Source: a virus. From it: a stretch of 23,688 nucleotides of DNA. A program made the translations under genes and the position numbers. Each line of letters starts with the position of its first letter. Positions within the stretch are counted from its first letter, which is position 1. Shown here one piece after another: positions 3,851 through 23,688 of this stretch. The notes below the pieces were generated by a model. That model was not told where the DNA came from, ran no database searches, and worked only from the letters and a program-made list of their open reading frames with translations. The stretch covers positions 1 to 23,688 of the IMG/VR virus record IMGVR_UViG_3300011184_000002. One strand, written 5' to 3'.

Positions 3851-4435
3851 ATGACAAGAAAAGAAAAAGAAAAAGAGTTCTTTGCTTATCACATGGATAA
3901 GTTTAGAAAAGCTGAAATCTCTAATCCATTCTTTACTCTGAAGACTGCGTTCTTTCAGAAGGGTAAATATGGTAGACAAGTTCAGCTGTTTGAAGGAGAG
4001 TTAAAAAGAGGTGAAGATATCTTTATTGAATTTATTGATGTTAACAGAGATGTTAACGGTAAAGAAATTGGGATTGAATCAGCTTTTGAAGAAAGACCTC
4101 TATTCAAGTACAAAAGCAATCCTTACTTTGCTGAAGAATATGATGTAAAGGAAGGTACAAACTCTATGGGAGAAAACTATTTTGCTTATACAATTCCATT
4201 GTCTGAGTTAATGGTAATTATGCCGGACGGTTCTGAGATTACTTATAATCTTTATGAGAAAAGAAAAGCTGAAGCTCCTAAAGAGCAAATAAGCCTTTCT
4301 GTATTTCCTGACTTTGAAGATGAATTTGTTCCAAAGCTTAAAGATGTAAGCTTAGATGCTGAGGATTCAGTTTCTGATATTCTTTTAAGAATTGCTAAAG
4401 ATTTTGAAAAACTAGCACAAACACTAAAAGCATGA
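3851..4435 (+). CDS. Unknown protein between helicase and Sak4-like gene
   Basis: A 194-residue protein of unknown function. The first 130 residues have alternating charged and hydrophobic residues typical of a beta-rich fold (QVQLFEGELKRGEDIFIEF, YFAYTIPLSELMVIMPDGS), followed by a basic stretch, a flexible acidic segment (FPDFEDEFVPKL) and a C-terminal amphipathic helix (ILLRIAKDFEKLAQTL). It lies 2 bases after the helicase stop, and its stop overlaps the Sak4-like start (ATGA), so it is co-translated with both. A role in replication or recombination is an inference from position only. Two loose clamp-binding-like pentads are present (QVQLF at 43-47 and QISLSVF at 146-152). Confidence 0.8.
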   Translation: MTRKEKEKEFFAYHMDKFRKAEISNPFFTLKTAFFQKGKYGRQVQLFEGELKRGEDIFIEFIDVNRDVNGKEIGIESAFEERPLFKYKSNPYFAEEYDVKEGTNSMGENYFAYTIPLSELMVIMPDGSEITYNLYEKRKAEAPKEQISLSVFPDFEDEFVPKLKDVSLDAEDSVSDILLRIAKDFEKLAQTLKA

Positions 4436-5154
4436 GTATAGTACTTCCAACTACAAAAGTAAAGGCTGAGAGAGTTAATCCAAAAAGATTAATTATCTAT
4501 TCTAAGCCAAAGACAGGTAAAACAACAGCATTTGCTGGTCTAGAGAATAATCTTCTTATAGATTTAGAAAATGGTGCTGATTATGTAGAAGCTCTTAAAG
4601 TAAAAATTACAAGCCTTCAAGAACTACTTGATGCTGGTAAAGCTATTAAAGCTGCAGGCAATCCGTATAAGTATCTTACTATAGATACTGTAACTGCATT
4701 AGAGGATATGGTGATGCCTTTAGCCATCAAGCTATACCGTAACACCAGCATGGGTAAGAACTATGATGGGGACAATGTATTGTCTTTAGCAAATGGTGCA
4801 GGTTACTTATATTTAAGACAAGCTTTCTTTCAAGTTTTAGATTTTATTGATACTTTAGCTCCCCACATTATTTTGTCTGGCCACATCAAGGACAAACAAG
4901 TTGATGACAAGGGAGAGATGGTTCTTGCAGCAAATATAGATTTGACTGGTAAGATTAAATCTTTAATCTGCGCTAATGCAGATGCAATTGGTTATATGTA
5001 CAGAAAGGGTAACAAAACTATTTTGTCATTCAAGACAAATGAAGAAGTTACTTGTGGTGCAAGACCAGAACATCTAAGAAATGAAGAGATAGTAGTTACA
5101 GAGATGAATGAACAAGGAGAACTTGAGTTCCACTGGGACAAAGTATTTATTTAA
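4432..5154 (+). CDS. Sak4-like RecA-fold ATPase (single-strand annealing/recombinase family)
   Basis: A 240-residue P-loop protein of the phage nucleotide-binding group that includes Sak4, a RAD51-like core protein promoting single-strand annealing. Seen: P-loop SKPKTGKTT (24-32) just after the first strand (RLIIY), LLIDLENGADYV (41-52), Walker B YLTIDTVTAL (81-90), and a late ILSGHIKDK segment that matches the motif-3 position, then a short C-terminal beta region. The first Gly of the canonical GxxxxGKT P-loop is Ser here. Family knowledge: Sak4 proteins are often encoded beside a single-strand-binding protein that stimulates them, and that arrangement is found here. Coupled to the upstream gene by ATGA. 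Confidence 0.8.
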   Translation: MSIVLPTTKVKAERVNPKRLIIYSKPKTGKTTAFAGLENNLLIDLENGADYVEALKVKITSLQELLDAGKAIKAAGNPYKYLTIDTVTALEDMVMPLAIKLYRNTSMGKNYDGDNVLSLANGAGYLYLRQAFFQVLDFIDTLAPHIILSGHIKDKQVDDKGEMVLAANIDLTGKIKSLICANADAIGYMYRKGNKTILSFKTNEEVTCGARPEHLRNEEIVVTEMNEQGELEFHWDKVFI

Positions 5155-5173: not shown

Positions 5174-5857
5174 ATGGCATTAAGCACAACTGATTTGGGC
5201 ACAGCAGGCTCAGGACTACCAAAGACAATTACACCAGGTAATCATGTATTAAAGATTAATAGCATTGAACTTGAAGAATTCAAGTTTATTCCTGGAGCAT
5301 ATCATCTTATGTTACATGTAGAAACTGCACCTATTGAAGGTTTTGAAGGTTTTATGATTGACAAAGATGATGAGAGCAAAGGAAGATACCAGGGTCAAAT
5401 TGGTAGAGTTAAAGCAAGTCAATATGCATTTGCTGATGGTGAAACTAAGACTGGTATTAAGATTCAGAGAGATAGATCTATCTTGATCTTCTTAAGAACT
5501 CTTGCTCATACATTACAACTTGATTCTTGGTTTGTTGAACAAGATGGTAAACATGAGACTATTGAAGACTTTGTTAAAGAATTCAGTAAAACTGCAGACT
5601 TTAGAGAAAAGTATCTTGAGTTTTGTGTTGCTGGTAAAGAATATGAGGGTAAAACAGGTTATACTAACTATGACATGTGGTTACCAAAAGCAGAAGGAAA
5701 GAAGTATGCATTTGGTGCTGAACAAGATGATGTAGTCATTGTATATAATGAAACTAAACATCTTAAGAAATTAGAAGTTAAAGAAGTTAAATCTTTTGGT
5801 GATGAGGATGATGTATTTCATAAACCAAAGACATCTTCTGATTTTAGCTTAGACTAA
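5174..5857 (+). CDS. Probable single-stranded-DNA-binding protein
   Basis: A 227-residue protein directly after the Sak4-like gene. A beta-rich body with strands HVLKINSIELEEF and YHLMLHVETAP and several aromatic residues (residues 24-50), then IGRVKASQYAF and YEGKTGYTNYDMWLPKA (157-173), fits an OB-fold-type DNA-binding protein. The end is acidic and carries a short hydrophobic/acidic tip (GDEDDVF then SSDFSLD), the type of tail that SSB proteins use to recruit partners. No sequence signature proves the fold; the call rests on layout, tail and the Sak4-SSB gene pairing known in other phages. It is last in its transcription unit, 17 bases before a strong terminator hairpin. Confidence 0.6.
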   Translation: MALSTTDLGTAGSGLPKTITPGNHVLKINSIELEEFKFIPGAYHLMLHVETAPIEGFEGFMIDKDDESKGRYQGQIGRVKASQYAFADGETKTGIKIQRDRSILIFLRTLAHTLQLDSWFVEQDGKHETIEDFVKEFSKTADFREKYLEFCVAGKEYEGKTGYTNYDMWLPKAEGKKYAFGAEQDDVVIVYNETKHLKKLEVKEVKSFGDEDDVFHKPKTSSDFSLD

Positions 5858-5874
5858 TAACTACTCTTATAATG

Positions 5875-5910
5875 AGGGAGTTCAGTCTTGGGCTCCCTTT
5901 TTATTTTATT
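5875..5910 (+). terminator. Rho-independent terminator after SSB-like gene
   Basis: A 9-base-pair stem (AGGGAGTTC pairing with GGGCTCCCT, including two G-T wobbles) with a six-base loop AGTCTT, followed by a T-rich tail TTTTTATTTTATT. It closes the first replication run. The hairpin also contains a TTG (5888) that opens the primase frame but is an unlikely start. Confidence 0.85.
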
Positions 5911-5914
5911 GGCT

Positions 5915-6892
5915 ATGATTTCAACTAAGAACTTAGTATCTGATTTACAGGATGTACCCAGAGAATGGGTATTTGAATACTATTTAAACTTAAAAGAGAA
6001 ACTTATTGGTCAAGACATAAAGATGCTTTCCGCATTTAATGTAAAGGACAAAGTTCCAAGCATGTTTATATACCGCAATGGGGATCACTACAAGTTTAAA
6101 GATTTCTCTTCTGGCTTTCAAGGTGATCAAATTGAACTTGTTAAATGTTTATTTAACTATGATACAAGATTCAAAGCAGTTAATAGAATACTAACTGACT
6201 ATCAGGAATATCTTAAGTATAATGCACCTGCAGAAAGAGGACCAATTCAATTTCATGATAAGTTCAAGGTAACAGATTACCAAATGAGACACTGGAATTC
6301 CCAAGACTCTAAGTTTTGGATGAGTTTTAAGATTTCTTCAACTGTGTTGGAGAGATATAATGTTGTCCCATTGGAGTTCTTTACTATGGAAAAGACTGCT
6401 ATTGATGGTACTATAGTATCTTATAGGTTTACAAGATCTTATGTTTATGGTTATTTTAGACAGGACGGTGAATTGTATAAGATTTATATGCCTAAAGTCC
6501 CAGAGAAGAAGTTCATTAAGATCCAGAACTATACACAAGGTATGGATCAACTGCAATATGATTCTAAGTATTTACTAATTGTTTCTTCACTTAAAGATCT
6601 TATGTCTTTTAAGAAGCTTGGTATTGGTAACATAGAATGTATTGCTCCGGACAGTGAGAATACAATGATTGGAGAATCTGTTATAAATAAACTTAGAGAG
6701 AAGTATGCTAAGATAATTGTACTGTTTGATAATGATGAGCCTGGCATTAAAGCTGCTCAGAGATATCAGGATAAGTACAATATTCCATATGTATTACTTG
6801 ACATGTCTAAGGATTTATCAGACTCTGTCAGAGATCATGGTATTGAACCTGTGAGAGATAAGTTATTATCTTTACTAAAACAGATAGTATGA
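5915..6892 (+). CDS. DnaG-like TOPRIM DNA primase, zinc-less
   Basis: Synthesises RNA primers for replication. I start it at ATG 5915 (325 residues); the upstream TTG at 5888 lies inside a terminator stem. The N-terminal part (residues 48-71) keeps the outline of a DnaG zinc domain (PSMFIYRNGDHY, then KDFSSGFQGDQIELV) but has no metal-binding Cys/His set. The TOPRIM domain follows: LLIVSSLKDLMSF (220-232), where the usual Glu of motif 1 is replaced by Ser; then IVLFDNDEPGIKA (268-280) with the DxD pair at 272/274; and KDLSDSV (299-305). No helicase-binding C-terminal domain is visible. Its stop overlaps the next start by ATGA. Confidence 0.85.
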   Translation: MISTKNLVSDLQDVPREWVFEYYLNLKEKLIGQDIKMLSAFNVKDKVPSMFIYRNGDHYKFKDFSSGFQGDQIELVKCLFNYDTRFKAVNRILTDYQEYLKYNAPAERGPIQFHDKFKVTDYQMRHWNSQDSKFWMSFKISSTVLERYNVVPLEFFTMEKTAIDGTIVSYRFTRSYVYGYFRQDGELYKIYMPKVPEKKFIKIQNYTQGMDQLQYDSKYLLIVSSLKDLMSFKKLGIGNIECIAPDSENTMIGESVINKLREKYAKIIVLFDNDEPGIKAAQRYQDKYNIPYVLLDMSKDLSDSVRDHGIEPVRDKLLSLLKQIV

Positions 6893-8272: not shown

Positions 8273-8673
8273 TGACAAGAGATGAATTAAAAAATCTGAT
8301 TAACATGTTTCAATCAAGTGATGCTGAAAATCATGTAGTTGCATTTCATGCAATTGAGAACAGTCCACTTGATAATAATGAGCTAGTATTATTGTATAAA
8401 TTTTCAGGGCAAGTATTTGCAAAATGGAAGCATGAAATTCCAATGACTGCACAGAGAATTGCTGATGTAATTGGTGATGAAGCCATAGCATTATCATCTG
8501 CACGTGTACTTGGTATTATTACTAATAATAAAGCAGACAAACATGTAATAGAAACATTCCTGGAGTTTTTCATTCGGGACTTAACCAGTATGTTAGGAAG
8601 CATAGGGTATCCAATGGACAAAGTAGACATCAATGTAAAAATAAGAGATTATGGACAAAGCACAGAGTCTTAG
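8272..8673 (+). CDS. SSDxEN-module protein (paralogue), upstream of VWA gene
   Basis: A 133-residue, mostly helical protein. Residues 5-31 repeat the module seen at the left edge of the window: ELKNLINMFQ then SSDAEN (15-20) then a hydrophobic helix ending NSPL, followed by LVLLYKFSGQVFAKWKHEI. The C-terminal half (ALSSARVLGIITNN, FLEFFIRDLTSMLG) is a second helical unit not present in the 76-residue paralogue. It overlaps the metallopeptidase/VWA gene by 23 bases, so it is likely co-translated with it. Candidate partner or regulator of the MoxR/VWA pair; no biochemical function can be assigned. Confidence 0.75.
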   Translation: MTRDELKNLINMFQSSDAENHVVAFHAIENSPLDNNELVLLYKFSGQVFAKWKHEIPMTAQRIADVIGDEAIALSSARVLGIITNNKADKHVIETFLEFFIRDLTSMLGSIGYPMDKVDINVKIRDYGQSTES

Positions 8674-9829
8674 TAAAATAAGTAAAGATTTAATGTTGAA
8701 AGAGCCCTATTACGGGTTCTTTCTCATTATGTTGAATAAAGTTTGGAGAAAAGATCTCCCAACTGCAGGAGTAAGCAAACAGAATATTAATTATCAATTA
8801 GCCATCAATGAGGAATTCTGGACTGGTCTAAGTGATGATCATAAAATGGGCTTACTGAAACATGAATTGCTCCATATTGCATTTGGACACCTTGTAAGTT
8901 TTAGTTCTTTCAGTAACAAAAAGCTTGCTAATGTTGCCATGGATATGGAAATTAATCAGTATATTGAAGACTCTTGGCTGCCAGAAGGAGGTATCAAACT
9001 TGAAGACTATGCGGATCTCAAACTAGATAAAAAGGCTGGTTGTAGATATTACTATGACCAGCTTCTCCGCCTTCAAGATGAGAAGGATAAGAATGGTACC
9101 ACAGGTAATACACCTATGGATAATCTTCTTGATGACATTGCTAATGGAAATGTTCCAGATCATAGCACATGGGAAGAGTTTGAGGACCTGACTGATGCTG
9201 AGAAAAAACTAATTGAAAAGCAAGTTCAGAAGATTCTACAAGATGCAAAAGAACAGACTGTTAAAAAACGTGGTAATATGCCAGGTGAAATTGAGGGTCT
9301 AATTGTAATTGAAGAGATTACTAGAGCTAAGTTTGATTGGAAAGGTTACATCAGAAGATTTACTGGCGTAAGCACTAAGGTGTTTACAAAGAAGATTAGA
9401 AGGAAAGAAAACCATAGATATGAAGATAATCCAGGTCTAAAGATTAAGATGCGTCAGCATATGTTGCTTGCTATTGATACTTCAGGTTCAGTAAGTGACA
9501 CAGAACTTACTGAGTTTATGAATGAGATTCATCATATCTATAAAGCAGGAGTAGATATTACTATAGTACAGTGTGATACTTCTATCAAATCAATTCAGCC
9601 TTATAAAGGCAAGAATGAAATTAGTGTATTAGGAAGAGGTGGGACAGAATTTGATCCCGTCCTAGATTATTACAATGCAAACCTAAAGAAATATACAAGC
9701 TTGGTATATTTCACTGATGGTGAATGTTATACATCTGTAAAACCAAGGAGTAAAGTTCTATGGGTTTTGTCAGAAAGATCAGGCATGAATGAAGACCTAC
9801 CAGGTCAAGTGATTAAATTAGAATTATAA
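8651..9829 (+). CDS. Metallopeptidase-like / von Willebrand A protein (DUF2201-type)
   Basis: A 392-residue two-domain protein. The N-terminal domain has a zinc-metallopeptidase motif HELLHIAFGH (71-80; HExxH with a third His at 80) followed by NVAMDMEINQYI (94-105), as in DUF2201-type VWA proteins. A charged helical linker with KKRGNMPGEIEG (205-216) leads to the VWA domain. Its MIDAS metal site is complete: IDTSGS (275-280), the downstream Thr in GRGGTEF (328-334) and the Asp in YFTDGE (353-358). VWA proteins of this kind work with MoxR AAA+ ATPases, often as chaperone-like systems that insert metals or remodel complexes; the MoxR partner is the next gene, 12 bases downstream. Whether the peptidase domain cuts anything is unknown, although all three His and the Glu are present. 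Confidence 0.87.
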   Translation: MDKAQSLSKISKDLMLKEPYYGFFLIMLNKVWRKDLPTAGVSKQNINYQLAINEEFWTGLSDDHKMGLLKHELLHIAFGHLVSFSSFSNKKLANVAMDMEINQYIEDSWLPEGGIKLEDYADLKLDKKAGCRYYYDQLLRLQDEKDKNGTTGNTPMDNLLDDIANGNVPDHSTWEEFEDLTDAEKKLIEKQVQKILQDAKEQTVKKRGNMPGEIEGLIVIEEITRAKFDWKGYIRRFTGVSTKVFTKKIRRKENHRYEDNPGLKIKMRQHMLLAIDTSGSVSDTELTEFMNEIHHIYKAGVDITIVQCDTSIKSIQPYKGKNEISVLGRGGTEFDPVLDYYNANLKKYTSLVYFTDGECYTSVKPRSKVLWVLSERSGMNEDLPGQVIKLEL

Positions 9830-9841
9830 AAAACAAACATT

Positions 9842-11011
9842 ATGAACACAGTACAATTGAATGCAGAAGAGTTAAAAGGTTTTATCAACCACATGGTAAA
9901 GAATAATCAGCACATCCAAGCTCAGGGTAAAGTTCCTGTAGCTGTCAATATTGAGGGTGATGCTGGTCTTGGTAAGACTTCAACTATTTTACAATTGGGT
10001 AAAGAGTTAGGAATGGATGTTGTAAAACTTAATCTATCTCAGATTGAGGAATTAGGTGACCTTGTTGGTTTTCCTGTTAAAGAATTTCTTGTTAAGAATC
10101 AAGAAGGTAAACAAAGATGGATTACTGAAGCTCAAGTACCGGCTGCAATGAAAGCAGGTTATACAGTAGCTGATAAAAGAATGTCCCATGCTGCTCCTGA
10201 GTGGATTCAAGGTAAAGGTGAGGGTGGTTTCCTAATCTTGGATGACTATACTCGTGCTGACCACAGATTTATGCAAGCTACTATGGAGATTCTTGACCGT
10301 CAAGAGTATGTATCATGGAAGCTTCCTAAGAACTGGCATGTTATTTTAACTTCAAATCCAGACAATGGTGACTATAATGTCACTAGCCTTGACGTAGCTC
10401 AGAAGACCAGATTTATTTCTGTTGAGATGAAGTATGATGCACCAGTATGGGCTAAGTGGGCTGAGACTGCAGGTGTTGACGGTAGATGTATCAACTTTAT
10501 GTTGATGCACCCAGAGCTTGTAACTCAACGTGTTAATCCAAGAGCTATCACTACATTCTTTAATGCTATTAGTTCTATTCCTAAGTTTGAAGAAAAGTTG
10601 CCATTGATCCAAATGATTGGTGAGGGTTCTGTTGGAGCTGATTTTTCTAGCATGTTTACTATGTTTATTAATAATAAACTAGATAAGATTATTTCTCCTG
10701 AAGATATCCTTACTAAGGATGAAGCATATGTAAAAGGTGCTATTGTAGCTTCAGTAGGACAAGGTGATGATTTCCGTGCGGACTTATCCAGTGTCATTGC
10801 AACACGTGTTATTAACTATGCACTTACTGTTGCTGACAAAGGTGGAGTTCCGAAGGCTATGATTGAAAGATTGGCTAAATTAACTACTGAGTTTGATGGC
10901 TTTACAAATGACTTGAGATACTATATGGTCAAAGAGATTGTAAATGGTAATAAAGTTAAGTTTGCTGCTTTGATGCAGGATACTAACGTAGTTAAGATGG
11001 CAATTCAGTAA
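9842..11011 (+). CDS. MoxR-type AAA+ ATPase
   Basis: A 389-residue AAA+ protein. Seen in order: Walker A GDAGLGKTS (39-47), a LNLSQIEELGDLVG segment (63-76), an inserted loop with KQRWITEAQVP (90-100), Walker B FLILDDYTRAD (130-140), the MEILDRQEY segment (148-156) typical of MoxR proteins, sensor-1 LTSNPDNG (169-176) and a candidate arginine finger in QKTRF (187-191). C-terminal helical lid follows. MoxR ATPases act with VWA proteins; the VWA gene lies directly upstream, giving the classical pair. Last gene of its transcription unit, just before a strong terminator. Compared with neighbours the coding sequence is richer in G-ending and C-ending codons only locally, so no sign of recent transfer. 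Confidence 0.88.
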   Translation: MNTVQLNAEELKGFINHMVKNNQHIQAQGKVPVAVNIEGDAGLGKTSTILQLGKELGMDVVKLNLSQIEELGDLVGFPVKEFLVKNQEGKQRWITEAQVPAAMKAGYTVADKRMSHAAPEWIQGKGEGGFLILDDYTRADHRFMQATMEILDRQEYVSWKLPKNWHVILTSNPDNGDYNVTSLDVAQKTRFISVEMKYDAPVWAKWAETAGVDGRCINFMLMHPELVTQRVNPRAITTFFNAISSIPKFEEKLPLIQMIGEGSVGADFSSMFTMFINNKLDKIISPEDILTKDEAYVKGAIVASVGQGDDFRADLSSVIATRVINYALTVADKGGVPKAMIERLAKLTTEFDGFTNDLRYYMVKEIVNGNKVKFAALMQDTNVVKMAIQ

Positions 11012-11050: not shown

Positions 11051-12346
11051 ATGAAAAGAGCAGTATTTTTTGATAAGGAAGATGAATCATTCAGTGTAGA
11101 TGTAAGACATGTACTTGAAGATTCTTCAAAGTTTGAACTATTTAATTTAAGTAAAGGCTATACTCCTGCACAAGGAGATACAATTTATCTTATGCCGGGT
11201 GTTAATATCCCAAGAGCAAAACTAAAAGACTTAGCACTTAATCAAGGTATTAAGGTGGTTAGAGATCCTGACAATGCCAATGTAATAATTACGGGTAAAG
11301 CTACTCCAGGTAGATTATTATACGGTAATTGGTATTATACGGCACCTATTGCTAAGATTGAAGAGTATCTTGATAAAGTAACAGTAGATGAGTATTATAA
11401 AGATAATCTACGTACAGCTATGTTGTCTTCAGAATCTGACAATGTATATTTTAATTATAGTACTAAGGTTAGTATAACTAGTCATGTAGTTACTAGTGTA
11501 TTTACTGGAAGTTCTCATCATTATTATTATATACATGATGAGTGGAAACAGTTAATTGATGACTGTCAAAACAAAACAGTTTATGATGAGTCTGAGTTGC
11601 TTGCTATGATTAATGGTGATGATGCTGTAACAATTACCAATGAAGTATATACCCAGTTGCGTGAGATGTTTAAGAGCTCAGACCAGGATAATCATATCAT
11701 GGCTATGGAAATCATGGCAAACTCTAATTATGTAGAGAGTGCATTGTATTTGCTTATGATGTTAGAGGAGTATGGTCATAGAATAGCAAGTTGTCATACT
11801 AAGAATCATGTGAACTTCAAATCTATGGTAAGTTATTTTGGTCTTAGAGTAAGAGATGTGGACTGCTTAGATCCAGATGATGTTTCTAAGAAATTAACTT
11901 CATTAGGTCTTCTTACTACAGAATGGTTAAATATTCTTTTAGAATCCAGACTTAATTGGTTTATTACAAACATTGCTAGAAGTTCTACTTTTAATGTAGC
12001 AAGTATTGTTCCAACACCAGACGTTGCAGTAGCAATTGACTCTGACTATAGAGCAGAGATTAACTTTGATGATGAGGAACATCCAGTCTTAGACTTTGCT
12101 ATAGGTCTTGATGAAGTCTCTGAAGAAATAGAAGAAGTACATCAGGATGATTTAAGTGCACCAGTTCTAGAAGAATTAAATGATTTGGGTCTTGAAGGAC
12201 CAGAGGGACCAAAGGGACCGGAAAATGATTCTAATCAAGTAGAAGCTGAGACAGAAGTATTAACTGAAGAATTACTTATTGTACCTGTATCAAATAACAA
12301 TCAAATAAAAGAAACTAATGAGCCCACTGACATTGACTGGTTCTGA
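11051..12346 (+). CDS. Large protein with embedded SSDxEN module and acidic tail, unknown
   Basis: A 431-residue protein of unknown function. Residues 1-95 look alpha/beta (MKRAVFFDKEDES, DTIYLMPGVNIP, ANVIITGKATPGRLLYG). A central helical region (198-262) contains the third copy of the SSDxEN module, here QLREMFK then SSDQDN (209-214) and a helix HIMAMEIMANS. The last 100 residues are acidic and low complexity, with a short collagen-like Gly-x-y run (residues 380-390, GLEGPEGPKGP) and a hydrophobic tip DIDWF. Family unrecognised. It follows the MoxR terminator and overlaps the PD-(D/E)XK nuclease gene by 29 bases, so it may link the MoxR/VWA block with DNA processing; this is inference. Confidence 0.75.
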   Translation: MKRAVFFDKEDESFSVDVRHVLEDSSKFELFNLSKGYTPAQGDTIYLMPGVNIPRAKLKDLALNQGIKVVRDPDNANVIITGKATPGRLLYGNWYYTAPIAKIEEYLDKVTVDEYYKDNLRTAMLSSESDNVYFNYSTKVSITSHVVTSVFTGSSHHYYYIHDEWKQLIDDCQNKTVYDESELLAMINGDDAVTITNEVYTQLREMFKSSDQDNHIMAMEIMANSNYVESALYLLMMLEEYGHRIASCHTKNHVNFKSMVSYFGLRVRDVDCLDPDDVSKKLTSLGLLTTEWLNILLESRLNWFITNIARSSTFNVASIVPTPDVAVAIDSDYRAEINFDDEEHPVLDFAIGLDEVSEEIEEVHQDDLSAPVLEELNDLGLEGPEGPKGPENDSNQVEAETEVLTEELLIVPVSNNNQIKETNEPTDIDWF

Positions 12347-13337
12347 TGAACTAGAATTATTTTACAAGAAACCATTCTGGTTTAGCTACAGTAGCATTAA
12401 TAAGCTATTGTTTTCACCTAGAATGTTTTACAGTCATTATGTTTTGAATCAGAGAGAAGACAGTACAGACGCGCACCTGGTAGCAGGGCGTGTCTTACAC
12501 TGTCTTTTATTTGAGCCAGATCATTATGACAAAGAATTTATCAGTATGCCTGGTAAATTTCCTACAGATAGTCAAAGAAAAATTATTGATACTATTTTCA
12601 AATATCATTGCACAATTGGAAATGATACATTATCTTTGGACTTCTACTCTCAAGAAATACTCTCAGAATTACTTACAGCAAATCTATATCAATCTCTTAA
12701 AACAGATCAGCAAAGATTAGATAAAGTTCTCACAGAAGAAAACAAATCCTACTTTAATTTTCTAAAAGAAAGTCTTGATAAGACAGTAGTTGATTCAATA
12801 ACTCTTGCAAATTGTAAAGAGTCACTTATTGAATTAAAGTCTAATCAAGCAGTAAGATCTCTTTTACAATTGGATAAAACTCCTAATGATGTTCACATAA
12901 AAACATTTAGTGAGCATATGATTAGTGTTAATCAGGAGCATTTACCATTTGGTTATAAAGGTATCTTAGATAATGTGGTGATGGATTATGATTCCAAGAC
13001 CTTATTTATCAATGACTTGAAGACTACAGGTAAAGATATTTCATCTTTTCCGGAGTCTGTAAGCTATTATAAGTATTGGATTCAGGCTGCCATTTATCAC
13101 AAGCTTGCCTGGGAGAATTTCATTAAGCCGCTTCCAGATGCTGTTGAATGGAATATAGTAATTACATTCATAGTAATTGATAAGTACAACCAAGTGTATC
13201 CTTACCAGGTAAGCAAAGAAACATTAGAACTATGGTTAGCTGACTTTGAAGACATAGAAGATAAATTAAAATATCACTATGAGAACAGAGAATATAAACT
13301 ACCATATGAATTGGCTTTAGGTAATGTAACACTTTAA
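12318..13337 (+). CDS. PD-(D/E)XK nuclease (RecE/Cas4-like)
   Basis: A 339-residue exonuclease-like protein. Motifs: WFSYSSINKLLFSPRMFYSHY (about 21-41), AGRVLHCLLFEP (56-67, the GxxxH/E helix), GILDNVV (215-221) with metal-binding Asp218, INDLKTTG (231-238) giving the D-x-K catalytic pair at 233/235, and YWIQAAIYHK (253-262), the Q-x3-Y helix of RecB/RecE-type nucleases. This order and spacing fit the RecE-C-terminal/PDDEXK exonuclease group that pairs with single-strand annealing proteins; the Sak4-like ATPase at 4432 is a plausible partner, though encoded about 8 kb away. The start at 12318 lies inside the previous gene (29-base overlap). Resection of DNA ends for recombination is the likely role. 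Confidence 0.85.
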   Translation: MSPLTLTGSDELELFYKKPFWFSYSSINKLLFSPRMFYSHYVLNQREDSTDAHLVAGRVLHCLLFEPDHYDKEFISMPGKFPTDSQRKIIDTIFKYHCTIGNDTLSLDFYSQEILSELLTANLYQSLKTDQQRLDKVLTEENKSYFNFLKESLDKTVVDSITLANCKESLIELKSNQAVRSLLQLDKTPNDVHIKTFSEHMISVNQEHLPFGYKGILDNVVMDYDSKTLFINDLKTTGKDISSFPESVSYYKYWIQAAIYHKLAWENFIKPLPDAVEWNIVITFIVIDKYNQVYPYQVSKETLELWLADFEDIEDKLKYHYENREYKLPYELALGNVTL

Positions 13338-14361: not shown

Positions 14362-16260
14362 ATGAGAACACATTGGGTAATGGACTATGAAACTCTTAGT
14401 AATTGTTTCATAGCAGTATTTGAAGACATTAAGTCTGAACATAGAGAGATCTTTGTAGTACACGAATCACAGAATGATATCTTAGAACTTGTAGAATTCT
14501 TGCAAGGTAATATTGCAAGAGAAGAATGGCACGTATCTTTTAATGGTCTTGGATTTGACAGTCAGATTACTGAGCATATTCTAAGAAATAGAGATACTGT
14601 TATTCATAATACAGGAGAATCTATTGCTAGATGGCTTTATGGTAAAGCTCAGGATATTATTGGTAGACAGAACCGTCAGGAGTTTCTTGAGTTTTCTCCA
14701 AGAGATATCCAAATTAATCAAGTAGATGTCTTTAAACTAAATCACTGGGATAATAATGCTAAGAGAAGTTCTTTAAAGTGGATTCAGTATACAATGGATT
14801 GGCCTAACATAATGGATATGCCTATTCATCATACTAGTAAGATTACTGCAGAACAGATTCCTGAAGTTATTAGATATTGTATTAATGATGTTAAGTCTAC
14901 TAAACAAATCATGCAGCTCAGTAAGAGTCAGATTGAATTGCGTAAGAATCTAACACAAGAATATGGGATTAATCTCTTTAGTGCTTCTGAGCCAAGAATT
15001 TCCAAGGAGTTATTCTTAATGTTCCTAAGTCAACAGACTGAAATTAGAAAATGGGATCTGAAACAAATGCGTACTCACAGGAGTATTATTAAAGTTGAAG
15101 ATATCATATTGCCTTATATTGAATTTAAGACGGCTACATTTCAGAATCTACTTAAGAAGTTTAAAGAAGTAGTTATCTATCCGGGTCAGACTAAAGGAGG
15201 ATTTAAGTATTCTGTCCAGTACAAGGGAGTAAAGACTGATTATGGTCTTGGTGGTATTCATGGTGCAAGAAGAAGTAAGGTATATAAGTCTGATGAAGAC
15301 ATGGTTATCATGACAAGTGATGTTACCAGTTTCTATCCTAATCTTGCTATCAGAAATAAGTGGGCTCCGGCACATTTACCACAAGATGAATTCTGCAATC
15401 TGTATGAATGGTTCTTTGAAGAAAGAAAAAAGATTCCTAAGAAGGATCCTAAAAATTATGTATATAAGATTATCCTAAACTCAACCTATGGGTTAAGTAA
15501 TGATGAGAACAGCTTCCTATATGATCCTGAATTTACAATGAGGATTACTATTAATGGTCAGCTAAGTTTATCAATGCTGTATGAGATGATCTGTGAAGAG
15601 ATCCCTAATGCAATTCCACTAATGCAGAATACAGATGGTCTTGAGACAATGATCCCAAGAGAGTATGTAGATAAGTATATGGAGATTTGTAAGAGATGGG
15701 AAGATATGACTAATCTACAGTTAGAACATGATACTTATAGTAAGATTGTTCTTGGTGATGTAAATAATTACATTGCTGTTACTGAAGATGGTAAGTCTAA
15801 GTGTAAAGGTAGATTTGAATATGCAGATCTTGCTCTTCACAAGAACAAGAGTTTCTTAATTATTCCCAAAGCACTACATGCATATTTTGTAGATGGAATA
15901 GATCCTGAAGATTTTATGAAAGCTAACACAAATGTATTTGATTATTGTGGTGGTGTTAAAATTAAAGGAGACTGGTCATTCCATTACCACAAAATAGTTA
16001 GTGGGGAATATTCAGAGACCCCCTTACAAAATACTATAAGATACTATGTATCTAATAATGGTGGTAAGATTGTTAAGAAGAACAATGACGATGCTAGAGC
16101 TATCCAGGTTGAGGCCGGTAAATGGATGCAGGCACTTATGATTGATTATGAAGAAAAAGAGTTTGAGGGATATGATATTAATCTCAAGTACTATCTAGAG
16201 AAAGTAAGAAAAGAAATTGAGAACCTTGAACCTAATACAAACCAATTAAGTTTATTTTAA
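14362..16260 (+). CDS. Family B DNA polymerase with 3'-5' exonuclease
   Basis: Replicative polymerase of 632 residues, short for family B. Exonuclease motifs: MDYETLS (7-13; D8, E10), FNGLGFDSQ (60-68), YCINDVKST (172-180; D176). A YGLGGIHG segment (294-301) bridges to the polymerase domain. Motif A is SDVTSFYPNLA (319-329; D320), motif B is KIILNSTYG (369-377), and motif C is QNTDGLE (422-428) with the catalytic second Asp kept (D425) and the first Asp of DTD replaced by Asn. The distance from motif A to motif B (49 residues) implies very short fingers. The last residues are NQLSLF, an exact match to the bacterial beta-clamp-binding consensus QL(S/D)LF. No protein-priming insertions (TPR1/TPR2) are evident, so RNA-primed synthesis with the primase at 5915 is likely. 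Confidence 0.92.
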   Translation: MRTHWVMDYETLSNCFIAVFEDIKSEHREIFVVHESQNDILELVEFLQGNIAREEWHVSFNGLGFDSQITEHILRNRDTVIHNTGESIARWLYGKAQDIIGRQNRQEFLEFSPRDIQINQVDVFKLNHWDNNAKRSSLKWIQYTMDWPNIMDMPIHHTSKITAEQIPEVIRYCINDVKSTKQIMQLSKSQIELRKNLTQEYGINLFSASEPRISKELFLMFLSQQTEIRKWDLKQMRTHRSIIKVEDIILPYIEFKTATFQNLLKKFKEVVIYPGQTKGGFKYSVQYKGVKTDYGLGGIHGARRSKVYKSDEDMVIMTSDVTSFYPNLAIRNKWAPAHLPQDEFCNLYEWFFEERKKIPKKDPKNYVYKIILNSTYGLSNDENSFLYDPEFTMRITINGQLSLSMLYEMICEEIPNAIPLMQNTDGLETMIPREYVDKYMEICKRWEDMTNLQLEHDTYSKIVLGDVNNYIAVTEDGKSKCKGRFEYADLALHKNKSFLIIPKALHAYFVDGIDPEDFMKANTNVFDYCGGVKIKGDWSFHYHKIVSGEYSETPLQNTIRYYVSNNGGKIVKKNNDDARAIQVEAGKWMQALMIDYEEKEFEGYDINLKYYLEKVRKEIENLEPNTNQLSLF

Positions 16261-16261
16261 A

Positions 16262-17449
16262 ATGCCAAAGAAAATTAAAGAATATGGAAAGGCACACTTA
16301 ATTAGTGTACCACTACCAGATCATGGAGATACTTATACAGTAATTAGCCATGAATCAGTTATTAATCATGCATATACGGAACTAGCTCAAGCTGGTTTTG
16401 GAATTGTATCTGAAGAGTACAGAGCTACTTCAGATGGTCAAATTGCACAAGGTATATACAAACTTCAGTATCAAAATGATCCTGAGTTGTCTATGATGTT
16501 TGCTTGGACAAATAGTTATAATAAACAAATAAGATTTAAATGTGGTGTCGGTGCCTATATCAATGAAACAGATTCTGTAATGGTTTCTGCGGATATGGGT
16601 AGCTGGGCCAGAAAACACACTGGTACAGCAGATGAAGAAACTGCAGCTATAATAAAAGAACAGATTGCTAATGCTCATATGTACTATGACCAACTAGTAA
16701 ATGATAAGAATTTCATGAAAGAAATTCCTATGACTAAGAGAAAGCAAGCACAGTTACTTGGAATATTATATGCTGAATTTCAAATATTAGCTGTAGATCA
16801 GGCAAGTTCTGTTAGAGTTCAAATGAATAAACCTTCTTTTAATTTAGAAGATAACACATTGTGGACTTTTTATAATTATGTAACTGTTGCACTACAATCA
16901 TCACATCCAAGAACTTGGATGGAAGATCAAAGAGTTCTTCACTATTTTATTTCTACTGTAAATAACTTTCCTAGACAAATTCCAGTTGAGCTTGAGGTAG
17001 GTAATGATGAAGAAGAAAAAGTTGCAGATCCATTATTAAACAATTATGGTCAGCCTGAGAATCAAACTAATCTTTTAGTTCAAATTGCTGAAGTTGAAGC
17101 TTTAGAAGAAGAAGTAGAAGAAGTCAAGGAAGAACAGGTAAACAAGGTATGCGATGAAATAGTAACTTATACTGATCCTATGGGTAATACCTTTGAAACA
17201 CCAGTGTTTGATGTTATTGATCTTAACAAAGATACTAAGATGTCAGTTGTGTTATTTCCTTGTGCAGCACATGATGCTGAAAGTGAATTCATGGATGGTA
17301 TTGATGAGTCTATTGAACCTGAAGTAGTTTCATTAGAACCTACACCAGAAGACCATTTAGTATTTGAAACACAACAAATAAAAACTGAAGATGACTTTGC
17401 ATTTGATTTCTCAGATGAGGATGAAGATGACAATGAAGCATTTTTCTAA
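16262..17449 (+). CDS. DUF932-like protein with acidic tail
   Basis: A 395-residue protein beginning 1 base after the polymerase stop. The first 240 residues resemble DUF932-type phage/plasmid proteins: a YTVISHESVINHAYTEL start, a two-strand region (YKLQYQNDPELSMMFAWTNSYNK), a glycine-containing turn with IRFKCGVGAYIN, then HTGTADEE and a helical half with LLGILYAEFQIL. After about residue 245 it is acidic and low complexity with a coiled-coil-like segment (VEALEEEVEEVKEEQV), ending DEDEDDNEAFF. Function of the family is unknown; one-base spacing suggests translation coupled with the polymerase. The acidic tail with an aromatic tip resembles SSB-type partner-recruiting tails. Confidence 0.6.
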   Translation: MPKKIKEYGKAHLISVPLPDHGDTYTVISHESVINHAYTELAQAGFGIVSEEYRATSDGQIAQGIYKLQYQNDPELSMMFAWTNSYNKQIRFKCGVGAYINETDSVMVSADMGSWARKHTGTADEETAAIIKEQIANAHMYYDQLVNDKNFMKEIPMTKRKQAQLLGILYAEFQILAVDQASSVRVQMNKPSFNLEDNTLWTFYNYVTVALQSSHPRTWMEDQRVLHYFISTVNNFPRQIPVELEVGNDEEEKVADPLLNNYGQPENQTNLLVQIAEVEALEEEVEEVKEEQVNKVCDEIVTYTDPMGNTFETPVFDVIDLNKDTKMSVVLFPCAAHDAESEFMDGIDESIEPEVVSLEPTPEDHLVFETQQIKTEDDFAFDFSDEDEDDNEAFF

Positions 17450-18701: not shown

Positions 18702-21700
18702 TTATTTAATTATAGAAGACTTCTCAATGTTCTTAATTAATGTTTCAGTGTCTCCAGTTACACCTGAATAACCTACTACTTTAAATAAGTTTCTCCAAAG
18801 TTTTAATTCACCTTCTTCCTGGAACCAATATGGACCGGTGTCTCTCTTATAATATGCACCCTCATCCATAGTAATTGTATCTGCTAGATTCTGAAGAATT
18901 TGAGCATATGTTTTACCTGTACTATTAAAAATAGAGCCCGTACTTGTAACAAACTTAACATAGTCATCAAGACCAAACTGTACACCATATAGTTTTGGAA
19001 TAGGTAGAAAGGTAGATGTTTCATTCATTACGCCCATGGTAAGTGCAAGTAAATGATTTTGCATAAACCCATAAGTGTTAAATGTTTCTTCACCTATATA
19101 ACCCCCTGATCTTTGACTAATTTTTTCCCATCTATCTTCATCATCTTCATCATAGCCAAATACCATGGCTGCTACTAAAGCTAATGCAATGATGGTCATC
19201 ATTTGAGTACCAATCTTTTTATATGCTGCTTTTTCTTTTGCAGTCATCCAGTTATAGTATCTTCCTTTTGTTTTAAACAACTTAACCATTGTTTTAAACG
19301 CAGTAATATAGTAACCTAGTTCTGTTGTACCCATGGCCCAGTCATATCTAGCTCTACCAACATTACCTGCTGATGTATCCATACCAAAGTGATTAACAAA
19401 CATAGGAGTGAACCACTTTCTCATGAAGAAGAACATGCGGTAAATCATATACTTGTTACCTTCAGGCTGACCAAATGAATCATAAGCACCATAAAGTTTT
19501 CTTGATAAACCATGGTATCTATTTTTGATTTCATTAAATCTATTTGCTTTGGTAATTACTAGTTCTGTACCATCTTCTAGATCTTTTGTGCTCTCAATTT
19601 TGTTTCTCTCTTTAAGCTTTTCTACTGTGGTATTATACATATTAGCAATATCTTGAAGAGTTTCACCTTGTGTGTAAACGTGATCAATTGCCTTTGTTCC
19701 ATAGTCTGGGTCAATACCTTCTTTCAACTTAATAATACCATTAGGATCCGTTTCCCAAGCATCTAAGTAATCAAGATAAATAACTTTACCATCTGTAGTT
19801 CTTTGTTCTACTTTCTGATGTTTCATAAAACCACCAAATAATTGTAGTGCAGCTTCCATCTCAGCAGACTTTCTAAAGTCAGTAGCCCAAGAACCATTCA
19901 TTAGATCTCTAAATAATGATCTACTTACTGATTGACCAAGTTGGTCTTCTGTTTTAAATACAGCATCAAAGTTTTCAATAATTTGTGCAGTAATTGAAGG
20001 TACGCCTTGTGCATAGATATCTTTAGCGGCCCATTTAATCATAGTGTTAAATGCCCAAGCTCTAGCATTTGCTAAGTCTTTAAGATTTACAAATTCTCCT
20101 CCAGCACCCTCAATAACATTTTGAGCTAACTGTCCATACCTGTTTTTTAAATCAGAAGGAATGTTAAGCGCTAGAGAAGAAAATGAAGCTAACTTAGAGA
20201 AGTTACTCATTAACTTGGTAAGGAACACATACTGATTTGCAGATTGAGATAATTGCACACCATAGTATTCTTTATCAATCAATGATCTTACTTGCTCAAG
20301 TCTGTTGTTTCTAGCATTCTTTTTACTTGCTGCCTTGCCAGTTTGTTTACTAAATTTACCAGTCTTAGTATTATTTCTAGGATCTTCAAGTTGTTTTAGA
20401 ATAGCCTGAACTCTTGGTAAACTATCAATTAAAACTTTTTGATTTTCAATTGACATAAGGTATTCACCAGTAACTTTAAATAAGTCCATGTCAACTTGAT
20501 CCATTTTAAGCTTGTATAAACCTGTAACAGGAACATATGCAATCTCTCTATTTAATGGATCTGTATTTACATAGACATTTTTATCCGGGTCATAGTTAGC
20601 AAAGCCACGGTTAAAGTCATCCTGAGCTCTACCCCATGTAGATTTTAACCATTCTTTTGTAGTACCTGCAAAACGTTTTGCTTTATCTACATACTCACCA
20701 CTTTGGAATTTTTGTACAACATCACTTACACCATATCTTGGCATGTCAAGATAGAGCTTGGCATTTTGTGCGGCTCCTTCTTGGAAATATAAATGATATT
20801 CTTTTAGATACTCAAGTAGTTCATACTGTGCACCACCTTGTTTCTTTAAGTCCCTATAGTCTTTATTGATAAATCTATCACCTGCAGCTGAGTTAACATC
20901 ATTTGGATTATAAGGTCTTGGAAGATATTCTCCTCGGTTATTTATAACCTTACCTATATAATCTTTTCTATCAGCATCATTTGGAATACTTCTATATTCA
21001 CTTTTAACTCTATAGATAGAATGCCTTGCATTAGGCATACCTTTAATAGTGATTGGTTTCCCAGTTGATCTATCTGTAATTTCAGTTTTTAAAATCTGAT
21101 TGTCATCAGATGGAATAGAAACTGAGTAAGCAGCATTTCTTTCAAAGACAGTATATCTTCTACCAAATGTATTATACTTTACTTTAGTTACGTGACTAGC
21201 ACCAAACCATTTTGCAAAGTCCTCATCAGCTTTAAGATAATCTTTAAAATCAGCGCTATTAATAAACTCATCAAGATTCTTAGCCTCTACTGCCGGGATA
21301 TTTTGTTTTTCTAAATAGAAGTTTAATGCTTCCATATAGTATTCAGTAGGTACTCTAGAGTTAAGTTCTGCTAGTTCTGCATATGCACCTTCTAACTGAG
21401 CCTGTTCTAATGTAGATAAACCATCTGATTTACGCATATTAGTGAGCTCTACATATCTTTGCATTTGCTCATTAGTCAAACTATTAGGATTGTTTTTTAA
21501 AGCTAATACATAAGATTTTAATTCTTCTCTTTGGTCTTGACTGAGATTATCATTTCTTTCTTGAGAAGATCTAATGTCATTGATTCTTTGATTGAGATCA
21601 TTGATTTTTAATAGTCTATCAGCTCCTAAAGAACCAGGTATTGGTTGACCTTGCTCATCTCTATAACCATAGAGTAGCTCCATCATTTCTTGGAACAAAG

Positions 21701-23688
21701 GTGCAGTTGAATCTTCTTTACCTTTTTTCTCTTCTAGTCTTCTAATAGTATCAAGAGCGCTTTGTTTAGCTTCATAGTATTCAGGAGCATAGATAATTTT
21801 TACGTTCTGTTTTAGCCACTGATTGTATGCATCCTCAAATCTATCAGAATCTCTTTTAATCCCTTTAGCCTCTTGTTCTAGTACAAACTCATTATAGGCC
21901 GTCTCAAGAGATCCTTCTCTTGGAACAAACTCATAGTACTTTCTTTTAGCTTCTTTGTATTGTCTTATTACAAGGGCTTTACTCAAATCATAGATTCCTT
22001 TTGCAGGGTCATCAACTTTTGGTGTACCATCAAAATAGTTAAGGTCAGATAGTCTTTGATATGCATCCCACTTAGCTTGTAGAATAGAATACTTCTCAAA
22101 TCTTTCAAGCTCATTATCAATACTGTTATTAAATGCCTGGTATTCATCTAGAGCACTTCTCATATCTAACCAAGCTTCCTTACCTACAGGAGATTCATCA
22201 AAGATTTCATCTACTTTATATACTTCAGGAAGATATTCTTGCCAGAAGAAGTCATTAATAAAGTTGTTTAGTTCTTTCTTAGCTGCAGCAATTTGTTGTC
22301 TGTCTCCGGTTTCTTCAGCTGTAGTAACATTATACTTAAGCTTATCAAGCTCGTATCTATAACCATTACCAAACTCATTCATGTAAGTATATACCTCAAA
22401 CTCTACAGGATTACCTTTCTCATCAAAGTCTAAGATTTTATCTTTTGACATTACCATATCAGTAAGTGCAGAGACATTGATTCTGCTAAATCCTACCGCA
22501 TCAAGTAACTGTGGTAATTTAGTTCTATACTCTCTAGATTTTTGAAGAGCATTTTGCTGGGCCTTAGTTCTTTGGTTTTGAATAAAAATAGCTAATCCAC
22601 CTACTATAGGGTCATTAGAAGATGAATATGACTCTAGGAATCTATTACCCCATCTTACATCAGGTGCAACCCCGGTAAGTGAAGCTTTAATTCTATTCTC
22701 ATCTAACTTAAAGAAATTATAATCATCTAAGAATTTACTTACAATATCAATAGGTACGTTCTTATTAGCCAGGGCATTGATCTCATCATTAGTGAGCTCT
22801 CTCTGTAACGCAGTTTTATAAAACTCCTCATACTCTTGATCACTTAAGTACTGTTTGATTGGTTCAATGTTTGATTTAAGTTCTTTTTCTAAGAACTCCT
22901 GCATGTACTTAGTAAGATCTAAATAGAAGTCTACATTACTTCTTTCATAGATATCCGTAATTTTCTTTTCAGATCTTTCTATCTCAGCAGCAATATCATT
23001 TACAAGATTAGTTAAGGCTGATCCCGTGGTTATATTTTCACTTTCAAATACCTCATTAATTTCACGGACCATTAGGTCATATGCTTCTAGCTGTTGCTGA
23101 TAGATATTAATAAGCGCGATTTTTGATCTTGTATCATATCTGCCTTCATTTAAAATACTGTTCAGGTCATTCTTAATATTCTTTACAATCTCTAATGTAG
23201 TTTCTAAAGATGTAATAAAACTTAATGAACGGTTTCTTTCATTCTGCAGTCTTCTTTCTTCTGCAGCTATGGCATCCATAATAATCTCTTCTTCATTGAG
23301 ATCTGTTCTTTGTTCCCCTGTAGCAGTTTGGTATGGTTTAAGAGACCTTGCTATAGTAGGTAAAAGTTCACGGGTACCTTTCTGGAATAATGCTTCTTGA
23401 AGAGCTTTGTATTCTTTTGATTTTGATTTGAATTTTCTTGCGCGTCTTAATAAGTCTAACTGTGTTATATAAGCTGAGTTAATAAGTTGTTGCAAAGAAG
23501 ATTCAGATATATCTTTAGTGAGTTCATCTGCTCTATCTACTGAGAACTTACCAAACATGACCACATCCTCATTTGTAAGGAGCTCAGTCTGGTAGTTGAA
23601 GTCTTTGGTTAAGAGCATATCAGCTAACTCCCCTAACGTAGTATCCACACTCATTTTAGAAACTTCTACCTTATTAGGGAAGATTGAA
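18702..23688 (-). CDS. Giant virion-type protein with LysM and membrane segments, partial
   Basis: A protein of at least 1650 residues, cut by the right window edge: eleven sense codons lie before the first in-window ATG (23654) and no stop precedes them, so the true start is probably outside. Numbering from that ATG, the N-terminal two thirds is long, charged, mostly helical and coiled-coil-like. Around 1323-1367 is a LysM-type peptidoglycan-binding module (YTQGETLQDIANMYNTT...GTELVI), and around 1482-1500 a membrane helix (TIIALALVAAMVFGY); another hydrophobic stretch sits near 1160. After the module come many aromatic and Arg/Lys residues (YMIYRMFFFMRKWFTPMFVNHF). Giant phage proteins with this mix are often packaged virion components ejected into the cell, but no catalytic motif, such as an RNA polymerase DxDxD, is visible. 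It converges with the plus-strand genes at a terminator. Confidence 0.75.
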   Translation of the reverse strand, partial: SIFPNKVEVSKMSVDTTLGELADMLLTKDFNYQTELLTNEDVVMFGKFSVDRADELTKDISESSLQQLINSAYITQLDLLRRARKFKSKSKEYKALQEALFQKGTRELLPTIARSLKPYQTATGEQRTDLNEEEIIMDAIAAEERRLQNERNRSLSFITSLETTLEIVKNIKNDLNSILNEGRYDTRSKIALINIYQQQLEAYDLMVREINEVFESENITTGSALTNLVNDIAAEIERSEKKITDIYERSNVDFYLDLTKYMQEFLEKELKSNIEPIKQYLSDQEYEEFYKTALQRELTNDEINALANKNVPIDIVSKFLDDYNFFKLDENRIKASLTGVAPDVRWGNRFLESYSSSNDPIVGGLAIFIQNQRTKAQQNALQKSREYRTKLPQLLDAVGFSRINVSALTDMVMSKDKILDFDEKGNPVEFEVYTYMNEFGNGYRYELDKLKYNVTTAEETGDRQQIAAAKKELNNFINDFFWQEYLPEVYKVDEIFDESPVGKEAWLDMRSALDEYQAFNNSIDNELERFEKYSILQAKWDAYQRLSDLNYFDGTPKVDDPAKGIYDLSKALVIRQYKEAKRKYYEFVPREGSLETAYNEFVLEQEAKGIKRDSDRFEDAYNQWLKQNVKIIYAPEYYEAKQSALDTIRRLEEKKGKEDSTAPLFQEMMELLYGYRDEQGQPIPGSLGADRLLKINDLNQRINDIRSSQERNDNLSQDQREELKSYVLALKNNPNSLTNEQMQRYVELTNMRKSDGLSTLEQAQLEGAYAELAELNSRVPTEYYMEALNFYLEKQNIPAVEAKNLDEFINSADFKDYLKADEDFAKWFGASHVTKVKYNTFGRRYTVFERNAAYSVSIPSDDNQILKTEITDRSTGKPITIKGMPNARHSIYRVKSEYRSIPNDADRKDYIGKVINNRGEYLPRPYNPNDVNSAAGDRFINKDYRDLKKQGGAQYELLEYLKEYHLYFQEGAAQNAKLYLDMPRYGVSDVVQKFQSGEYVDKAKRFAGTTKEWLKSTWGRAQDDFNRGFANYDPDKNVYVNTDPLNREIAYVPVTGLYKLKMDQVDMDLFKVTGEYLMSIENQKVLIDSLPRVQAILKQLEDPRNNTKTGKFSKQTGKAASKKNARNNRLEQVRSLIDKEYYGVQLSQSANQYVFLTKLMSNFSKLASFSSLALNIPSDLKNRYGQLAQNVIEGAGGEFVNLKDLANARAWAFNTMIKWAAKDIYAQGVPSITAQIIENFDAVFKTEDQLGQSVSRSLFRDLMNGSWATDFRKSAEMEAALQLFGGFMKHQKVEQRTTDGKVIYLDYLDAWETDPNGIIKLKEGIDPDYGTKAIDHVYTQGETLQDIANMYNTTVEKLKERNKIESTKDLEDGTELVITKANRFNEIKNRYHGLSRKLYGAYDSFGQPEGNKYMIYRMFFFMRKWFTPMFVNHFGMDTSAGNVGRARYDWAMGTTELGYYITAFKTMVKLFKTKGRYYNWMTAKEKAAYKKIGTQMMTIIALALVAAMVFGYDEDDEDRWEKISQRSGGYIGEETFNTYGFMQNHLLALTMGVMNETSTFLPIPKLYGVQFGLDDYVKFVTSTGSIFNSTGKTYAQILQNLADTITMDEGAYYKRDTGPYWFQEEGELKLWRNLFKVVGYSGVTGDTETLIKNIEKSSIIK

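Follow-up and report, generated by a model that had tools for sequence, protein, structure and literature searches.

Here, we report that the family B DNA polymerase (PolB) of a crAss-like phage ends in the peptide QLSLF, which is very likely a beta-clamp-binding motif (CBM) that docks the phage replicase on DnaN loaded by the host. Judging from sequence comparison, a tag of the Q-x-x-L-F type is common to about 250 related phage polymerases, and the crAss-like phages that bear this tail probably borrow the host clamp for DNA copying. Few viruses of the human gut are more abundant than crAss-like phages, which are also common in water, and the literature that we checked offers no explanation of how they replicate processively without a recognizable clamp. 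A conserved DnaN hook on the replicase would be a testable answer to this question, and it predicts reliance on both the host clamp and the host clamp loader.

The polymerase and its genomic context

The polymerase is encoded on the plus strand at positions 14362-16260 of the window, by which we mean the whole stretch of 23,688 nucleotides that was analysed (IMG/VR record IMGVR_UViG_3300011184_000002). The ORF starts with ATG, stops with TAA (16258-16260) and encodes a protein of 632 aa that matched the DNA polymerase family phrog_1252 over residues 2-626 in the profile search (E=1.3e-144); the match to Pfam DNA_pol_B was weak and below the cut-off. An AlphaFold2 model, for which the input consisted of 24 own and related sequences, reached a mean pLDDT of 87, and its top PDB matches identified with Foldseek were B-family polymerases only (E about 1e-13). 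In the alignment, exonuclease motif I and polymerase motifs A, B and C, all on the plus strand, are intact and invariant. The exonuclease motif, MDYETLS (14380-14400), which marks the proofreading domain of PolBs, contains the invariant D8 and E10. Motif A (DVTSFYPN, 15319-15342) contains the invariant D320, S323, Y325 and P326, motif B (KIILNSTYG, 15466-15492) contains K369, N373 and G377, and motif C (NTDG, 15628-15639) consists of N423, T424, D425 and G426.

The phi29-type protein-primed polymerases carry a TPR1 insertion between motifs A and B. In the alignment of the present family, motif A (residues 320-327) and motif B (residues 369-377) are about 40 residues apart, which leaves no space for this insertion and places the enzyme outside the protein-primed type, whereas the family match and the intact motifs place it among the crAss-like RNA-primed PolBs. 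Because TPR1 has no space and the window encodes a DnaG-type primase and a DnaB-type helicase, the polymerase is most likely an RNA-primed replicase. The enzyme also falls outside the clade of E. coli Pol II, which was the weakest match in the PDB profile search (E=0.15), whereas archaeal PolBs matched better, down to E=4e-5. By its phrog_1252 assignment and genomic context, the polymerase belongs to the crAss-like PolB group, in the EpsilonN-like clade, described by Kazlauskas et al. 2020 (PMC7544198).

The polymerase is part of a replication module with a gene content like that of crAss-like phages such as cr10_1. The module encodes a UDG, a DnaB-like replicative helicase (2853-3848; PF03796, E=7e-17; phrog_19) with best matches in crAss-like gut phages, a Sak4-like recombinase/AAA_24 ATPase identified by family profile matches (4432-5154), a probable SSB (5174-5857), a DnaG-type primase with a Toprim domain (5888-6892; PF13155, E=3.5e-7; phrog_12622 DNA primase, E=4.7e-22), a VWA/AAA+ pair, and a PD-(D/E)XK exonuclease (12318-13337; PF12705, E=9e-7; phrog_412), in addition to the PolB; the helicase, recombinase, SSB, primase and exonuclease genes all lie on the plus strand. 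The VWA/AAA+ pair (8651-11011) consists of a VWA/metallopeptidase-like protein (DUF2201) adjoining an AAA+ ATPase, an arrangement of the MoxR/VWA type that is also present in cr10_1. The 227-aa protein encoded at 5174-5857 had no family match in profile searches; its low-confidence model is OB-like and no clamp, and most of its best Foldseek matches are ssDNA-binding proteins (PrgE, SSB), none of them below E 0.001. This protein ends in SSDFSLD, and the products of 11051-12346, 16262-17449 and 5174-5857 all have conserved acidic/hydrophobic C-terminal tips (DIDWF, DFF/AFF after an acidic run, and SDFSLD, respectively), which resemble the C-termini of SSB proteins and may serve as protein-docking tails.

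The 23.7-kb window contains no portal or capsid gene. All the near-complete tail-bearing relatives that were tested encode a crAss-like portal (E 1e-20 to 1e-31), and most of them have a weak major capsid match; the same search detected no crAss-like portal or capsid in 9NA and NP1. Thus, through the portal and capsid genes of the near-complete relatives, the polymerase can be assigned to Crassvirales genomes, and the window is predicted to derive from a crAss-like phage with this polymerase as its replicative enzyme.

A conserved C-terminal tail

The polymerase C-terminus reads ...NLEPNTNQLSLF up to the stop codon, with NTNQLSLF as the final residues. The last thumb helix, as delineated in the AlphaFold2 secondary structure (residues 608-622; 16183-16227, plus strand), is followed by a linker, EPNTN (residues 623-627; 16228-16242, plus strand), that connects it to the motif and varies in sequence as well as, between lineages, in length, and then by QLSLF (residues 628-632; 16243-16257, plus strand) directly before the stop codon. 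The original prediction of an exact match to the clamp-binding consensus, NQLSLF at 16240-16260, is confirmed, with the N627 codon starting at 16240 and the stop codon closing the segment. Equally borne out is its placement at the site where clamp peptides usually reside: the motif occupies the extreme C-terminus of the 632-aa ORF, and residues 628-632, with pLDDT below 50, are the least confidently modelled part of the protein and give no indication of packing.

A chance match can be ruled out. Given the amino-acid composition of the related loci, the probability of QL[SD]LF per C-terminus is about 2e-6; an ending of the form Q[LM]xL[FW] was found in none of the 1,388 distinct non-polymerase ORFs from the 80 closest viral loci (0/1,388); and the tail is conserved position by position. 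A motif of the QLxLF type alone would be no evidence, because the polymerases of Salmonella phage 9NA and a Nitrincola phage hold a perfect internal QLDLF, which we rejected as a clamp motif because it aligns with a conserved strand of the exonuclease core.

The tail is conserved in relatives. All 80 of the closest IMG/VR polymerases (76-95% identity) end in Q[LY]xLF, and a second set, about 55-60% identical to the window polymerase, ends in Q[LM]xLF without exception (83/83), in both cases directly before the stop codon. In a third lineage (L207, L213-L292; about 30% identity), Qxx[LI][FW] followed by 0-1 extra residues is present in 79 of 80 sequences, and the single exception (L206) is placed elsewhere on the tree. 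The fourth lineage, Suoliviridae (about 28% identity), carries QLx[LI][FW] within the last ten residues in 7/7 named genomes (cr10_1, cr7_1, cr273_1, cr131_1, cr1_1, Bohxovirus and the unclassified Dulem virus 42) and in all viral contigs with an intact C-terminus. In the two lineages at about 30% identity, 0-5 extra residues follow the motif. The original prediction considered clamp-dependent family B polymerases to be uncommon outside enzymes of the E. coli Pol II type, and this view has to be qualified: in several lineages of crAss-like polymerases, the tail is the rule rather than the oddity of one phage.

Across the relatives, which conform to Q[LMYIT]x[LI][FW], motif positions 1 and 4 are essentially invariant Q and L, position 5 is F, rarely W, position 2 is L, at times M, Y, I or T, and position 3 varies freely (S, K, T, E, R, Q, N, D, A). 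The codons of the motif vary synonymously (CAA/CAG, TTA/CTA/CTT, TTT/TTC), and since the residues are fixed while the codons change, selection acts on the protein sequence of the motif. The distance between YY and the Q is 18, 19 and 27 residues in three lineages, and the linker sequence changes as well. A fixed motif combined with a variable linker is what one would expect if a short binding motif is tethered flexibly, and the tail is conserved far more strongly than the relatedness of the flanks would predict.

Among the peptides that bind the beta-clamp, QLxLF is the best, with the highest affinity, and the consensus is Q-phi-x-[L/M]-[F/L], where the Q is important, position 2 is aliphatic, position 3 is free, and L/F is the best ending (PMC11139829). 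The substitution pattern of the phage tails coincides with this published tolerance, and the Trp found at position 5 in a few relatives fits the E. coli clamp data poorly (PMC11139829).

The identical peptide, QLSLF, is the C-terminal CBM of B. subtilis PolC, a replicative polymerase, where it is essential and has a micromolar affinity for DnaN (PMC12309361; PMC3919608). A QLSLF-type C-terminal motif is present in 98% of PolC sequences, and nearly all DnaE1 sequences, including most of those from Bacteroidetes, bear a related motif (PMC3919608). PolC, however, is a cellular polymerase of family C that shares no catalytic-core homology with the viral family B enzyme described here. E. coli Pol II likewise belongs to family B and carries its beta-clamp motif at the C-terminus (PMC11139829) but, unlike the phage polymerase, it is a bacterial repair enzyme from another PolB clade. 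The P. furiosus Pol-PCNA structure (3a2f), one of the Foldseek matches, resembles the phage polymerase in fold and in having a C-terminal peptide for clamp binding. The peptide of this archaeal PolB is, however, a PCNA-binding PIP box, with PCNA as its partner.

The text of Kazlauskas et al. (PMC7544198), searched for clamp and processivity, does not mention a clamp-binding tail on the crAss-like PolB group, and clamps are not mentioned in Yutin 2021 and 2024, which address polymerase swapping in Crassvirales. We found no report of a clamp-binding tail of crAss-like polymerases in the full-text literature searched, which was mostly without subscription papers. Although clamp-binding peptides are a known kind of element, their systematic use by crAss-like replicases appears to be new.

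Search for a sliding clamp

In agreement with the original prediction that no sliding clamp is visible in the window, profile searches detected no match to any clamp family among the window ORFs. The same result was obtained beyond the window, in the near-complete tail-bearing genomes (97-118 kb), where none of the DnaN domains (PF02768, PF00712, PF02767) reached the cut-off and neither the gp45-type domain PF02916 nor the phrog_947 processivity factor was found. The same phrog_947 search does detect the divergent clamps of NP1, JenK1 and Seurat (Queuovirinae), phages that share the phrog_1252-family polymerase but encode their own processivity factor in an adjoining gene, annotated in Seurat as a sliding clamp subunit, and lack the tail. 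Among the genomes examined, an own clamp and the tail are mutually exclusive within this polymerase family.

Several candidates were considered and rejected. The window protein families of 227, 188, 395 and 431 aa gave no clamp in PDB profile searches. The AAA+ protein at 9842-11011 is not a convincing clamp loader, given that it matched phrog_168 weakly and phrog_1297 far better and that its partner is the VWA protein. In phi14:2, a weak match to phrog_947 (12.5 bits) falls within the ORF of the major capsid protein and is spurious, and a weak PF02768 match in another genome (G010) is below the cut-off and contains an internal stop.

The original prediction allowed for recruitment of either host DnaN or a phage clamp encoded elsewhere, and host DnaN is favoured because the tail is conserved and no clamp was recognized in the near-complete relatives. 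We consider it unlikely that the tail binds a divergent phage-encoded sliding clamp that lies outside the window and is missed by current models. Room for such a protein exists, inasmuch as related contigs measure 100-118 kb, so that some four-fifths of a genome of roughly 115 kb would lie outside the window, many ORFs, several of them of 190-430 aa, have no family match, and phage clamps are divergent. However, the DnaN, gp45 and phrog_947 models are all silent in the near-complete relatives, even though the last of these models is sensitive enough for the Queuovirinae clamps; the main candidate in the replication module resembles an SSB; no dedicated clamp loader is apparent, with AAA+ matches falling in proteins like the one paired with the VWA protein; and the motif is the bacterial DnaN consensus itself.

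Proposed mechanism

In the favoured scenario of docking on host DnaN, the phage helicase and primase would unwind the DNA and supply primers, after which the host clamp loader would set host DnaN on the primed template, and the QLSLF tail would enter the peptide pocket of DnaN and tether the phage polymerase, conferring processivity, much as the C-terminal QLSLF serves Bacillus PolC and the C-terminal tail serves E. coli Pol II. We infer the physical binding, the identity of host DnaN as the partner, clamp loading by the host and the gain in processivity, as well as the absence of a very divergent phage clamp. The crAss-like kin of this phage infect Bacteroidota. Because DnaE1, including that of most Bacteroidetes, carries a clamp-binding motif, the DnaN pocket is likely to be in use in the expected hosts. 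Three polymerases that are 53-56% identical (L098, L099, L100) come from contigs binned as Pseudomonadales and Campylobacteraceae MAGs; this placement is likely a binning artefact or else reflects an unexpected host. Host assignment through homologue-bearing genome contigs was abandoned, as it yielded only MAG contigs of doubtful host.

It is highly improbable that the tail is instead a host-takeover device that fills the DnaN pockets and displaces host polymerases, without a role in phage processivity. DnaN-targeting phage proteins are known, for example Twort Gp168, as cited in PMC11139829, and host DnaE would have to compete with so strong a peptide as QLxLF. However, the replicative polymerase itself carries the tail, at the site where PolC and Pol II have theirs, takeover could equally be exerted by a protein other than the polymerase, and competition may be a side effect of docking on the host clamp. 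There is, likewise, very little likelihood that the tail contacts the helicase, the primase, the SSB or some other partner instead, or that it has a structural or stabilizing role and only resembles a clamp motif: tail-mediated contacts within the phage replisome are plausible because further replication proteins of the phage carry conserved C-terminal tips (DIDWF, DFSLD, DFF), but the substitutions (Q, L, free, L, F) follow the clamp-peptide pattern exactly in three lineages with different linkers, and the tail is the least confident part of the model, where nothing suggests packing.

Tail-less relatives and evolution of the tail

In tail-less members of the family, the protein finishes with the last thumb helix or soon after it, and the motif is absent. 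They include polymerases of Proteobacteria phages, namely, 9NA, Sasha, Vibrio K455, VpaJT_1, Acinetobacter B9, Nitrincola, Klebsiella KB2 and others; in one of them, the polymerase of Rhizobium phage RHph_TM3, an off-consensus YQDLF lies seven residues from the end. Because the tail-less relatives end right after the last thumb helix, and because the model shows disorder and the linker differs in length while the motif stays, the tag is best regarded as an added tail. In the maximum-likelihood tree of 55 polymerases, tail-bearing sequences form three groups with tail-less ones between them, and the presence or absence of the tail requires at least three changes, a count that does not change if the tree is built without the last 30 residues. 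Long branches make some of the deep joins unsure, so these changes may be gains, losses or a mixture of both.

The tail is not universal in crAss-like polymerases. Intestiviridae polymerases (gut crAssphage type) lack the motif, as does a Flavobacterium phage polymerase represented by its C-terminal fragment, and thus this polymerase type does not need the tail in every Bacteroidota phage. Furthermore, many small Proteobacteria phages with a phrog_1252 polymerase replicate with neither the tail nor a clamp, so dependence on a clamp is not a general property. The gut crAssphage PolB and crAss001 family A polymerase (PolA), used as queries, retrieved no new viral contigs.

Putative clamp-binding loops in other crAss-like polymerases

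The phi14:2-type PolBs (Steigviridae; L083, L197-L204) lack the C-terminal tail, and all 8 of those retrieved contain Q[LMG][ND]IFD in a loop insertion, at a distance of about 60 residues from the C-terminus. This loop could possibly represent an internal clamp-binding motif. The crAss001-type family A polymerases are unrelated to PolB. In this type (L303, L305, L306 and L307; Steigviridae), Q[GR][DNS]LF is present in 4/4 sequences, in an internal loop within otherwise variable sequence. Both samples are small (8 PolB, 4 PolA), and neither motif is a perfect clamp consensus, but both agree with the idea that every crAss-like polymerase supplies its own clamp hook.

We only tentatively suggest, as a reading that is less probable than not, that clamp binding is a portable module, with each type of crAss-like polymerase bringing its own hook for host DnaN and thereby allowing an in-place swap of the polymerase. 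If this is the case, the polymerase gene could be exchanged without altering the rest of the replisome, and the DnaN hook would offer a reason for the exchange of polymerases from unrelated families in crAss-like genomes.

In addition to the replication module, the window encodes, on the minus strand (18702-23654), a 1,650-aa protein with a LysM-like stretch and hydrophobic segments near the end, for which no match was found in 50,697 phage records. In two relatives (L186 and L188, on contigs of 179 kb and 147 kb, respectively), the otherwise intact polymerase genes contain four and seven in-frame TGA codons, which suggests that TGA is read as a residue in these phages. The portal genes of two other genomes (G035 and G036) contain 12 and 17 in-frame TAG codons, respectively.
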